From the IMG/VR virus record IMGVR_UViG_3300050821_008163, positions 1 to 44,431 of that record: a stretch of 44,431 bases of DNA; one strand, given 5' to 3'. A program made the position numbers and the translations under genes. The stretch comes from a virus. Of this stretch, positions 7,470 to 37,200 are shown piece by piece (within the stretch, counting starts at the first letter, position 1; every line of letters begins with the position of its first letter). A model generated the notes under the pieces. It made no database searches, was not told the origin of the DNA, and saw nothing but the letters and a program-made list of their open reading frames with translations.

Positions 7470-7886
7470 TCATCTTGGGTACCCCAGATCTCTTGCTATT
7501 TCAGTTGCCTCTTGGCTGTTGCCCCCGCGTTCGTCTGATGCTGCCATGAGCCTGAGCTGATCTCGTGCTTGCTGTGCTACGTTAGTGTGTACGCCTGGTA
7601 GCTCGTAGTTCTTTGGCGAAGAGGCTCCCGTACCCTTCGGCGGTACTGTTCCGTCTGGATTGACCTGAATTGCAAACCTGTAACGAGAGCCAGGAGCAAT
7701 TGTCGACATTCCGACTATCGTCGGCGGCAAGTAATCCGGACATCTATCGTTCCTGCACTCGTACAGCTCGACCATCGTCCCCTGTGGCATATGTGCTGAC
7801 TTAGGGGCCGGGCGCCTGTTCAGGAGGATTCCTGGCTCTTGACAAGCCGGGCAACGCTTAGCCTCTTCTAGGGTTGTGTCTGTCAT
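7470..7886 (-). CDS. Zinc-ribbon protein, 138 aa
   Basis: ATG behind CAGGA. Residues 12-49 carry CPACQ and CRNDRCP, a four-Cys ribbon. The rest is polar, with a helical C-terminus (NVAQQARDQLRLMAAS). The start overlaps the stop of the upstream winged-helix gene. It probably binds nucleic acid or protein; no family is named. Confidence 0.7.
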   Translation of the reverse strand: MTDTTLEEAKRCPACQEPGILLNRRPAPKSAHMPQGTMVELYECRNDRCPDYLPPTIVGMSTIAPGSRYRFAIQVNPDGTVPPKGTGASSPKNYELPGVHTNVAQQARDQLRLMAASDERGGNSQEATEIARDLGYPR

Positions 7887-8299
7887 TACGATCCTGTGTC
7901 CTTCAGCTCTTCTAGTTCCTGGATTCGCTTGGTCAGGTCTTCAACCTGGCCTTCAACCACGCTCAGTCGAGTGGTGCCTCTCTTGGATTCACACTCCTCG
8001 AAGGTACCGTATTCAGGCTCTTCGAGCAGCTCCCATCGTGATGGTGCACTGCCTCCGCCTCGGCTGAGCTGTCTCACACAGCCCATCAACTGGAGGCGGC
8101 GCATCACCGCAGTATACATAGGCGTGGCCAGACCGAGCCTCTGAAACAGCTTGGTCAGAAATCCCTCGTATACTGGTACTTGCCTCTTGTCACCTCCCTC
8201 TGAGAGCTCGACGTAGGTCGCCTCTCGCCGCATCTGCTCAAACACTGTTATGCAGTGTATGAACAGCTTGGGAGGAGCACTTCCGTATTCGGTAGTCAC
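7886..8299 (-). CDS. Winged-helix DNA-binding protein with coiled-coil tail
   Basis: About 137 residues from a GTG six bases after AGGAGG. Residues roughly 45-95 (GFLTKLFQRLGLATPMYTAV, then RRLQLMGCVRQLSRGG) form a helix-turn-helix plus wing like that of MarR/replication-initiator winged helices. The C-terminal 25 residues (VVEGQVEDLTKRIQELEELK) form a coiled coil, so it probably dimerises. A phage transcription regulator is the most likely role. Confidence 0.75.
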   Translation of the reverse strand: MTTEYGSAPPKLFIHCITVFEQMRREATYVELSEGGDKRQVPVYEGFLTKLFQRLGLATPMYTAVMRRLQLMGCVRQLSRGGGSAPSRWELLEEPEYGTFEECESKRGTTRLSVVEGQVEDLTKRIQELEELKDTGS

Positions 8300-8308
8300 A
8301 TTCACCTC

Positions 8309-8533
8309 CTAGACTTCCAACATGTCGAGCCTGGCCCTGACTCGCTTGAGTGTCTTGTATAGCTTGTCCATGTCGCCTGTTAGCTCTAGTAGTTGTTCCA
8401 AGCTGGTCAACGAGGGATCGCCTGCCATTATGTTTCGCTGTCCTTCAGCTTGATCTTCCCACTGTTCTAGGGTGGTATCGAGGACAAATCGGATTACTTC
8501 CTCTTCGAGGTCGCTGAGGACTAGGGTTGCCAT
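8309..8533 (-). CDS. Hypothetical helical protein, 74 aa
   Basis: Starts ATGGCAACC behind AAGGAGTG. Longer in-frame versions have no ribosome site and run into the structured RNA region. The product is acidic and all-helical (DLEEEVIRFVLDTTLEQWEDQAEGQ...LLELTGDMDKLYKTLKRVRA). It is the first protein gene downstream of the non-coding RNA region. No family is recognised. Confidence 0.75.
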   Translation of the reverse strand: MATLVLSDLEEEVIRFVLDTTLEQWEDQAEGQRNIMAGDPSLTSLEQLLELTGDMDKLYKTLKRVRARLDMLEV

Positions 8534-8580
8534 TGTATTACACTCCTTTGTCAAAAAATGAAACTGGTACGACATGGACT

Positions 8581-9245
8581 CCTGGCAGGGAGCCATGCCG
8601 CCCAGCCGCAGGCTGCCACCCACCGGTTTTTCAAGCCGGCCACTGGGTGCCCGACCAGGGCCGGTACTCACTGCTGCGGTGGCTGACAGTTTTCCCTAGG
8701 GGCGTTAAGGCGTGCGCTCCTACGCCGAGTACCCTGGTCGGGCACGCTTAAGTCCTGCTCAAATGTCAACGGTGGGACTTGGGCTAGCACGCCGTTGCCA
8801 CGCTTGCTTGCTCCCGGGAGCTCCACCTGAGCAGGACGCTTGACCGTCAGGCTAGTAGGCGGGACCAATAGCCCTCTGCTGTGAAACCTCTTTGGCTCCG
8901 TAAACACCCTAGGTCGGAAGGATGCTGAGCTACCTACTCTAACACACCTGGGGATGAGCTCAGCGGCCACGGCTTCGACAGCGCGACCTGAAGTGAGCCG
9001 GACCCAGGAGTTGCCCTCGCGCGCAAGGACTAGCGTTAGCGGCTACTCGTAGCCTGACGGTATCTTAACGCCGGGTTCCCATAATGCTTGACAGGGACTT
9101 CGCGAAGGTCACTACTCCCCCACTTCGGTGTCAGTGTAACACCCCGGCCGTTTACGAGGACGCCTGCGTACTTTGACCTTCCGTTAGCCGAACCAACGAC
9201 TGGCGGGTAATAACGGCCTTATCAGCAGGCGCCCAAGCCTCTATT
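8581..9245 (-). ncRNA. Large structured non-coding RNA (novel candidate)
   Basis: About 665 bases without a credible gene but packed with long complementary segments, read on the minus strand. Helices seen: 9225-9234 with 9158-9167 (10 pairs, one G-U) enclosing 9211-9216 with 9181-9186; 9143-9152 with 9067-9075; 9050-9061 with 8843-8854 (12 perfect pairs); 8828-8837 with 8752-8761 (10), extended by 8823-8827 with 8771-8775; 8742-8751 with 8705-8715; 8732-8745 with 8647-8660 (14 perfect, partly a pseudoknot with the previous one); 8617-8626 with 8636-8639/8644-8649; 8603-8615 hairpin. A tRNA-like element lies just upstream. Size, phage location and tRNA neighbour resemble GOLLD/ROOL-type giant RNAs, but the sequence was not compared with them. 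Ends are approximate. Confidence 0.72.
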
Positions 9246-9265
9246 TAGTTGTCAAATGTACTACG

Positions 9266-9342
9266 TGGCGTGCCTGGAGTCGAACCAGGATGCGCAGGAG
9301 TGTGGGCAACTGCGCCGGCTTTGCCATTAAGCTACACGCCCC
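9266..9342 (-). tRNA. tRNA-like element, probably degenerate or atypical
   Basis: Read on the minus strand it has a tRNA-like acceptor (GGCGTG with CACGCC), a D-arm GCTT-AATGGCA-AAGC, and a perfect T-arm CCTGG-TTCGACT-CCAGG. The anticodon arm is abnormal: the only 5-pair stem is GCGCA with TGCGC, leaving a 14-base loop and a 2-base variable region. The first acceptor pair is mismatched and no CCA is encoded. No anticodon can be assigned with safety. It may be a decayed tRNA, or a tRNA-shaped domain of the large RNA that follows. Confidence 0.55.
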
Positions 9343-9346
9343 ATTC

Positions 9347-9453
9347 GCTATGAGAGTGTTCACTCCACGCGTCAGGAGGACTGCGCCATCCGAGGTTCTC
9401 CCTAAAAGGCGCCGCTTGCACTACGACGCCTTCGGCTTGTATTCTCTCACAGC
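9347..9453 (-). ncRNA. Structured segment 5' of the tRNA-like element
   Basis: On the minus strand the ends pair over 10 bases (9444-9453 with 9347-9356, one G-U). Inside is a second hairpin (9427-9432 with 9406-9411). It lies between the stop of the 9469-9984 gene and the tRNA-like element. It may be the 5' domain of one RNA of about 870 bases running to 8581, or a spacer that is cut out during tRNA processing. Confidence 0.5.
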
Positions 9454-9468
9454 AAACTCAGGAGGTCG

Positions 9469-9984
9469 TTACTCGGCCTCGTCTACGTTTTCGTACTCAG
9501 CTGAGTCAGCGGCCATGTCGCCATTGCCCTCTTCCTCAGCCTCAACGGGCTCACTGCCTGCAGCGGCCTTCTCAGCAGCCTGCTTGGCCTTCTCGGCCTT
9601 TTCAGCCAGCTTGGCCTGGGTCCGCTCGCCCTTGCGACCCCACCAGTCCACGACCTCAGAAATCTTGACACCAGGTCGCGTACGCGTGATGCCGTGCTCG
9701 TCGACCTTGGGCGCAGCGTGCTCGTTGCCCTCAGCGTCGTAGTGCTTGACGGGGAAGGGGTCGGTCTTGCCCGGGTTCTTTACAAACCCGTACATCTGCT
9801 GCGGCTTGAAGTCCTGAGGCGCGTGCCCCTTCTGCTTCAGGTGGTTCAGTGCCGTAATAGGTGACACGATCCCCTCAGGCAGCGGTGGCCGCTGTACGCC
9901 TGGGGTGGTTGGCTGCGCCTTCTCTTCAGTCGTTTCGGTCTGCGCCTCAGTGTGCTCGGCCTCGTGGTGCTCGTGCTCCGCCAT
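9469..9984 (-). CDS. Putative DNA-binding protein, P-Q-x-M-Y family, acidic tail
   Basis: 171 residues, ATG behind GGAAAGGAA, about 75 bases below a promoter at 10062. The N-terminus is acidic and disordered. A core follows, SPITALNHLKQKGHAPQDFKPQQMYGFVKNPG, that matches in layout two other proteins here (35045-35488, 36874-37200): a start helix, then P-Q-x-(M/W)-Y/L and a basic turn, then a WWGR segment. The tail is Lys/Ala/Glu-rich. I infer a helix-turn-helix core, with three paralogs in one phage each under its own promoter. Function not known. Confidence 0.72.
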   Translation of the reverse strand: MAEHEHHEAEHTEAQTETTEEKAQPTTPGVQRPPLPEGIVSPITALNHLKQKGHAPQDFKPQQMYGFVKNPGKTDPFPVKHYDAEGNEHAAPKVDEHGITRTRPGVKISEVVDWWGRKGERTQAKLAEKAEKAKQAAEKAAAGSEPVEAEEEGNGDMAADSAEYENVDEAE

Positions 9985-10061: not shown

Positions 10062-10091
10062 ATTATAGCGAGGCTCCCATTGGACCTTCAA
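10062..10091 (-). promoter_or_regulatory. Leftward promoter P1
   Basis: -10 TATAAT (10062-10067), 18-base spacer, -35 TTGAAG (10086-10091). It precedes the 9469-9984 gene and the tRNA-like/structured RNA region. It shares its exact geometry with the other promoters listed here. Confidence 0.65.
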
Positions 10092-35044: not shown

Positions 35045-35488
35045 CTACTCGGCGAGCTCGTCGAGCTCGTCGCCGTCCGCGTCGCCTTCGACGACTTCGT
35101 CGGCAACTTCGACGCCTTCGTCGTCAGCGCTCGCAGCGTTCGCGTTCGCGGACGCCATCTGCTCGAGGCCTGCGACAACGTCGATGTCGTCGTACTGAGC
35201 GGCGATCCTGTCGAGGTTGAACGACACACGAGCGGTACCAGTACCGCTCTTCGCCGCCTGCAGCCACGCTGCGAACGAAGCGCCGACGAACATGACGCCG
35301 GTTCCGCCCTGTGCCTTCGGCGAACCGTACCGCGTGATGGACTTGTTGGAGTACATCGTCTGCGGCGCGATCTCCTCGTCGGCGGCGAGCTTGCCGGCCT
35401 TGCGGAGCTGCAGCGTGGCGATCTGGGCGGCGCGGTAAGGCGTCAGGTCGGTGTACTGCTTGGTGGTCGTGCTGGTGTTCTCGGACAT
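35045..35488 (-). CDS. Putative DNA-binding protein, P-Q-x-M-Y family, acidic tail
   Basis: 147 residues, ATG behind AAGGAGGAG, own promoter P5 and own terminator. YTDLTPYRAAQIATLQLRKA, EEIAPQTMYSNKSITRYG match the cores of 9469-9984 and 36874-37200. A middle strand (GVMFVGASFAAWLQAAKSG) is shared with the latter (HVMFDGDAFAAWLQRYVAG). The tail is very acidic. I infer a helix-turn-helix protein made in quantity from a stable message; role unknown. Confidence 0.75.
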   Translation of the reverse strand: MSENTSTTTKQYTDLTPYRAAQIATLQLRKAGKLAADEEIAPQTMYSNKSITRYGSPKAQGGTGVMFVGASFAAWLQAAKSGTGTARVSFNLDRIAAQYDDIDVVAGLEQMASANANAASADDEGVEVADEVVEGDADGDELDELAE

Positions 35489-36873: not shown

Positions 36874-37200
36874 CTACTCCGCCGCTACCGGCTGCTCGTC
36901 GTACTCTGCCGCGAGCGCTGCAAAGTCCGTCTTGCCGCGCACGCTGCTGCCGCTGACTCGCCCTGCGACGTACCGCTGTAGCCACGCCGCGAACGCGTCG
37001 CCGTCGAACATCACGTGCGTGCACTTCGCGTGCGCACGATGGTCGCTGCTGCCCTGGTCACACGTCGCTGCAATCACGCCGCGCTTCGCGTAACCGTACA
37101 GCCACTGCGGCGTCTGCTTCTCGCTGATCTCGTGCTTCGCGAGCACGTGCTCGATCACCTTGCTGGCTGCGTACGGGCTCAGGTCGCTGTGCTGACTCAT
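36874..37200 (-). CDS. Putative DNA-binding protein, P-Q-x-L-Y family
   Basis: 108 residues, ATG behind GGGAGG, first leftward gene below P8. SDLSPYAASKVIEHVLAKHE, KQTPQWLYGYAKRGVIA is the shared core, then HVMFDGDAFAAWLQRYVAGR as in the 35045 protein. No acidic tail. Position beside the divergent control region would suit a regulator of early/late gene use. Confidence 0.74.
   Translation of the reverse strand: MSQHSDLSPYAASKVIEHVLAKHEISEKQTPQWLYGYAKRGVIAATCDQGSSDHRAHAKCTHVMFDGDAFAAWLQRYVAGRVSGSSVRGKTDFAALAAEYDEQPVAAE

Follow-up and report, generated by a model that had tools for sequence, protein, structure and literature searches.

A putative modular RNA locus with a boxA-like motif in the largest coding gap of an uncultivated soil phage

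Among the large structured RNAs of phages, GOLLD assembles into a homo-oligomeric cage, shows raised expression during lysis and has a universally conserved 3' region, and ROOL is a very abundant, stable RNA that forms a cage as well. GOLLD is a structured RNA of unknown function that exceeds 800 nt in many members and has a tRNA nearby, and ROOL is phage-encoded, measures ~580-660 nt, contains many helices and pseudoknots and lies near tRNA islands; both RNAs are often found near such islands and form cages (PMC12286853). The window analyzed here, that is, the whole virus record of 44,431 bases, stems from a soil phage whose terminase and portal have their closest counterparts in phages of actinobacteria (38% identity to Arthrobacter phage Wollypog). 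The RNA predicted in its largest coding gap would, like GOLLD, be large, structured and phage-encoded, with a degenerate tRNA nearby, and it would resemble ROOL in size, in its helices and putative pseudoknots, and in its proximity to a tRNA-like element. In contrast to GOLLD, however, the locus carries a boxA-like motif and modules that differ between relatives, and, in contrast to ROOL, no conserved global fold is found among the relatives of the window. It is best called a member of the large structured phage RNAs, set apart by boxA and modularity.

With cmscan, applied to the whole window at the gathering threshold and to positions 8300-9700 at E<=5, no match was obtained to GOLLD (RF02032), its conserved 3' region included, to ROOL (RF03087) under either setting, or to other large Rfam RNAs, and the same held for 16 related loci. 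As to neighboring phage tRNAs, another feature of GOLLD, one degenerate tRNA (9341-9265) and no intact tRNA were found in the window. An earlier sequence-only reading had considered a diverged GOLLD or ROOL; this part of its interpretation is not supported, given the missing model matches and a gap whose length and content vary among relatives, unlike one conserved ornate fold, whereas its view of a structured non-coding RNA region is supported. A group I intron was likewise rejected, as S-like and R-like motifs appeared in the wrong order by eye and no Rfam match was found.

Coding gap and long helices

Genes in the window lie on the minus strand up to ~37.2 kb and on the plus strand beyond, and a purpose-written codon-usage gene caller identified 116 of them. 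The largest non-coding stretch left by this caller covers 935 nt (8534-9468), followed by one of 464 nt. None of its open reading frames of at least 30 aa scored like a called gene, with values from -7.3 to +1.5 as compared to 17 to 70 for the neighboring genes S, A and B; a 100-aa frame (8668-8970) scored -3.5, and the only positive frame comprised 30 aa (+1.5). A coding reading of the region was rejected on these scores, and the long coding gap reported previously is real.

Upstream, the gap is bordered by gene B (9469-9984, minus strand), which encodes an acidic protein of 171 aa with homologues in ~20 related phages, no Pfam or PHROG match, no significant fold match and a predicted model with a pLDDT of 77. 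Downstream follow the small gene S (8309-8533, minus strand; coding score 17.2), with homologues in the relatives G051 and G011, and gene A (7886-8299, minus strand; 137 aa), with homologues in more than 20 related phages. None of the cultured phage records encodes A or B. All flanking genes and the degenerate tRNA share the minus strand. A consensus scan placed a promoter-like site (TTGAAG, 18 nt, TATAAT; 10062-10091, minus strand) upstream of gene B, one site being found and 0.7 expected by chance. Elsewhere in the window, where the leftward operon nears its end (35045-35488 and 36874-37200), further genes belong to families overlapping the gene B paralogues of relatives.

All helices named in the sequence-only reading were recovered within the gap. 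On the minus strand, a perfect 14-bp helix (8647-8660/8732-8745) closes domain D5 (8647-8745), a perfect 12-bp helix (8843-8854/9050-9061) closes domain D3 (8843-9061), a perfect 10-bp helix (8752-8761/8828-8837) closes domain D4 (8752-8837), and a 10-bp helix with one G-U pair (9158-9167/9225-9234; pairing probability 0.91-0.93) forms the stem of domain D1 (9158-9234), directly downstream of the boxA-like motif. Pairing probabilities of these four nested helices ranged from 0.76 to 1.0. Perfect pairs of at least 12 bp arose in 55 out of 2,000 dinucleotide shuffles (2.8%) and pairs of at least 14 bp in eight (0.4%), while no shuffle contained a 14-bp and a 12-bp pair together and none of 137 coding windows of gap size reached 14 bp. 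By shuffling, the chance rate of a pair of at least 12 bases amounts to 0.028 per sequence rather than the 0.015 stated previously. Complementarily, a perfect 9-bp pair (8701-8709/9064-9072, spanning 8701-9072 on the minus strand) has one arm inside the domain that the 14-bp helix closes, suggesting a possible long-range pseudoknot into D5. At the 5' end of the gap, we read from the sequence a possible further domain (9351-9449, minus strand) with the closing pair TGAGAG/CTCTCA (9449-9444/9356-9351), which encloses a hairpin (GGCGTCG/CGGCGCC, 9430-9424/9414-9408); a 150-nt window at this end had a folding z of -2.0 on the sense strand.

For the region as a whole, the folding z was -2.5 on the minus and -1.4 on the plus strand. 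In 150-nt windows, the window's own gap folded no better than coding controls (p=0.54), because its helices are long-range. Across 144 windows from 20 gaps of the family, in turn, the sense strand outdid both the antisense strand (p=6e-6) and the window's coding DNA (p=3e-7) in folding. This strand preference bears on the idea that the gap acts as DNA, for instance as a palindromic site of replication or recombination, which would account for the strong inverted repeats and agree with a helicase gene ~4 kb away. Besides the sense bias over all gaps, the G-U pairs in D1 and in the 3' element T, which are mismatches on the other strand, the lack of direct repeats or iterons and a cumulative GC skew without a turn in this region argue against such an element, making it the least credible of the explanations we weighed.

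No sequence homologues of the central helices D1 and D3-D5 were found among the relatives reached, and blastn with the gap as query found no real match in 50,697 phage records or in 50 records of related viruses. The D1 stem was equaled in 11 out of 100 shuffles of the window alone; several relatives likewise have a long stem, of other sequence, downstream of boxA. A central part without sequence conservation, together with degenerate tRNAs, is what a decayed tRNA array or a neutral spacer with chance hairpins would leave behind. Helices exceeding shuffles, covariation in the elements T, X and Y described below, a conserved boxA and the otherwise gene-packed phage genomes speak against decay, and we regard it as very improbable.

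A degenerate tRNA, a boxA-like motif and a pseudoknotted 3' element

The degenerate tRNA (9265-9341, minus strand) comprises acceptor, D and T arms and scored 30.8 bits against the Rfam tRNA model (RF00005; gathering 29). In place of a decoding anticodon arm with 5 bp and a 7-nt loop, we read a 6-bp stem with a 12-nt loop, which distinguishes the element from tRNAs and from the tRNA-like domain of tmRNA (RF00023), whose acceptor and T arms are kept in the phage elements. ARAGORN found no tRNA in the window, and the tmRNA model had no match there. The tRNA-like element reported in the 5' part of the RNA is thus present, but it occupies the 5' part on the minus strand only, which is the strand of the flanking genes. 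Its T arm is shared with the relative G001 beyond shuffles (p=0.005), and the T-arm heptamer GGTTCGA occurs in nine out of 25 gaps (1.1 expected). The gap of G017 contains an intact tRNA-Met and that of G001 a tRNA-Gly; elements in the G051 gap, in turn, match only as tmRNA-type acceptor and T-arm halves.

Nearby lies the boxA-like antitermination motif TTTGACAACTAAATAGA (9240-9256, minus strand), the top motif-matrix match of the window. In ten genomes, the matrix gave its top rank to the copy in the gap, at the same place and in sense orientation; as the matrix derives from these very copies, this ranking is partly circular, whereas the rRNA-leader result below is independent of it. The window copy matched that of G051 with p=0.01. 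In some relatives with a short gap (351-380 nt), boxA is absent. An exact scan of bacterial genomes with the variant found in phage leaders yielded 80 matches, 43 of which precede a 16S start by 115-236 nt, nearly all in actinobacteria, indicating that the phage motif is the actinobacterial rRNA-leader boxA. Another 31 fall near contig ends, rRNA operons being frequent break points of assemblies, and six elsewhere.

Lambdoid phages, too, make use of boxA, the NusB-NusE site of rRNA operons. In the window, the copy TTTGACAACTAAATAGA has its core in common with the phage leader variant, which is found in rRNA leaders of the likely host phylum; the phage motif has the same core, TTGANAACTNAATAG, as boxA of rRNA operons and likewise precedes a predicted untranslated structured RNA. 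Unlike a boxA in an rRNA leader, it follows a protein gene within an operon of the phage. It probably works as an antiterminator.

Second boxA-like copies were observed in the leaders between the divergent operons of G051 (76997, minus strand), G002, G004, G005, G009, G010, G011 and G014. They are almost identical to actinobacterial 16S leaders, and phages with a leader boxA may therefore antiterminate whole operons using host Nus factors; in the window's own divergent region no such second copy was found. In an Acidimicrobiia metagenome-assembled genome, CTTGACAACTGAATAGTGTG precedes the 16S start by 201 nt (L342:502-521, minus strand), and the ACAACT form that this genome and the phage gaps have in common hints at a host.

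At the 3' end, element T (8551-8624, minus strand) combines a pseudoknotted hairpin with a U-tract (8563-8551), the loop CTGCCA (8588-8583) pairing with an upstream TGGCAG (8618-8613). Covariation, which had been named as a check on the structured RNA, was assessed for T on three sequences, i.e. the window, G001 and G017: 95% of the alignment cells are paired, and seven pairs, including one of the pseudoknot, have both partners changed, so that T holds up with its pseudoknot included. Within gaps, the T model matched only these three phages, and a pattern search over all IMG/VR contigs found G001 only. T is terminator-like and directly precedes gene S.

Changing modules between fixed genes

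Terminase alignment identified 80 related IMG/VR loci. About 20 uncultivated relatives keep B and A as neighbors with 350-1500 nt between them, and these gaps are mostly non-coding except for gene S and a few inserted open reading frames. Among relatives that retain 50-65% protein identity, gap length and content change. G051 (98.8 kb), the nearest relative, agrees with the window in gene order and is 58-67% identical to it in helicase, terminase and portal; at 1493 nt, the gap at its B-A site is also by far the largest that it has. Exact peptides of the window's proteins revealed no close relatives, and a viral scan with the helicase gave no closer relative among the matches listed.

Several relatives showed additional features. 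In G015, a 795-nt open reading frame is inserted in the gap (L140:15932-16726), with hairpin and boxA copies on both sides. The terminase match in G051 (79855-82368) spans just 319 residues of a much longer frame, which may be interrupted or fused. Upstream of gene B in G001, a type II hammerhead ribozyme exceeds the Rfam gathering threshold (L179:2006-2069, plus strand), and another relative has a weaker, sub-threshold match (L177:1738-1782). In G053, gene B is preceded by a long, near-perfect hairpin (L202:484-554), for which several models of miRNA precursors gave sub-threshold matches; it is no more than a strong palindrome.

Two further elements covary in the gaps of relatives, and both have conserved internal loops. 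In element X (GGGACAACGCUGCUGAGUG ... AACCAGGCACUGGUGUCCC), 13 out of 26 pairs are changed on both sides, none of 500 shuffles did as well, and all slid controls were far lower. Its covariance model matched eight places at E<=1e-4 in 1.32 Mb, all of them B-A gaps, and X was later found in the B-A gap of G065 (E=9e-9), a phage not in the model. Element X had no match in cultured phages, and in the window it was rejected, as 1-3 bits are noise. Covariation of element Y was seen in five phages, of which two are mutually close, and a motif search did not find Y in the window. In the gap of G065, four or five hairpin modules are arranged in tandem ahead of X (L226:5883-6269), with the common joint CAGGAYYCAAACGTCCTG and differing inner stems, which suggests that the locus grows by module duplication. 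Homology of D4 to these modules was rejected, the ungapped similarity not being beyond chance; the shared stem GTCCTGCTC/GAGCAGGAC with its linker is kept as a lead.

These relatives weigh on the idea of one giant ornate fold of 700-900 nt that works like GOLLD or ROOL, perhaps as a homo-oligomeric cage, without being homologous to them. Size, perfect long helices, the possible long-range pseudoknot and a tRNA-like neighbor, as GOLLD and ROOL often lie near tRNA islands (PMC12286853), would fit such a molecule. With gaps of 350-1500 nt at the same site, different modules, no common global fold and no Rfam match, however, it appears improbable, and our preferred reading is a possible new class in the form of a modular locus rather than one giant RNA.

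A purely cis-acting region, i.e. a structured 3' UTR of B joined to an S-A leader that sets mRNA decay, termination and the expression of S and A without a free RNA product, deserves somewhat more credit. The position between co-directional genes, the terminator-like T right before S and boxA as a cis signal agree with it; the large, variable content of up to 1.5 kb, however, exceeds the need of cis control, and the tRNA-like elements and the modules X and Y with their internal loops suggest products. On balance, we consider a solely cis-acting role rather unlikely.

A model of the locus and its meaning

The gap very probably contains a structured non-coding RNA locus: it is non-coding and syntenic in ~20 relatives, the family shows a sense-strand folding bias, homologous gaps contain covarying elements, T, which the window has, covaries with two relatives, and boxA and tRNA-like signals are present. 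We favor, at a probability of roughly two in three, an antiterminated, modular non-coding RNA locus on the minus strand, located between B and S-A within their operon. From these features we infer transcription, antitermination, processing and a trans-acting role; that the RNA is processed and acts in trans is a possibility to which we give slightly less than even odds.

Such a locus would join a degenerate tRNA and a boxA of the rRNA type to several helical domains and a terminator-like hairpin with a pseudoknot. RNA polymerase leaving gene B would be exposed to Rho after the translation stop, and boxA would recruit host NusB and S10, allowing transcription to continue through ~700 untranslated bases. 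The tRNA-like element would serve as substrate for RNase P and RNase Z, freeing the 5' end, and element T would form the 3' end. An RNA starting just 3' of the tRNA-like element and ending in the U-tract would measure 714 nt (9264-8551), the 650-870 nt of the sequence-only reading being a guess; the product could be one or more stable folded RNAs of about this length or shorter pieces.

More tentatively, the locus may be a boxA-antiterminated, rRNA-like island with fixed flanking genes, in which folded modules are gained, lost and recombined, yielding RNAs that act in trans, directed against the host or used together with it. The modules of such an island could be X, Y, T, tRNA-like halves and tandem hairpins, the window being, again tentatively, a member with its own set. 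Fast module exchange between fixed genes suggests a changing partner, most simply the host, and any trans-acting RNAs would thus probably be host-facing.

Phages encode large RNAs whose function has yet to be explained, and this putative locus adds an unrelated case, from an uncultivated phage family with actinophage-type terminases and at least three structured RNA elements unmatched in Rfam. The question of how phages transcribe RNA over long untranslated stretches finds a testable answer in the boxA signal. Together, the fixed position and the changing modules point to an exchange of RNA parts, unlike the single families GOLLD and ROOL.
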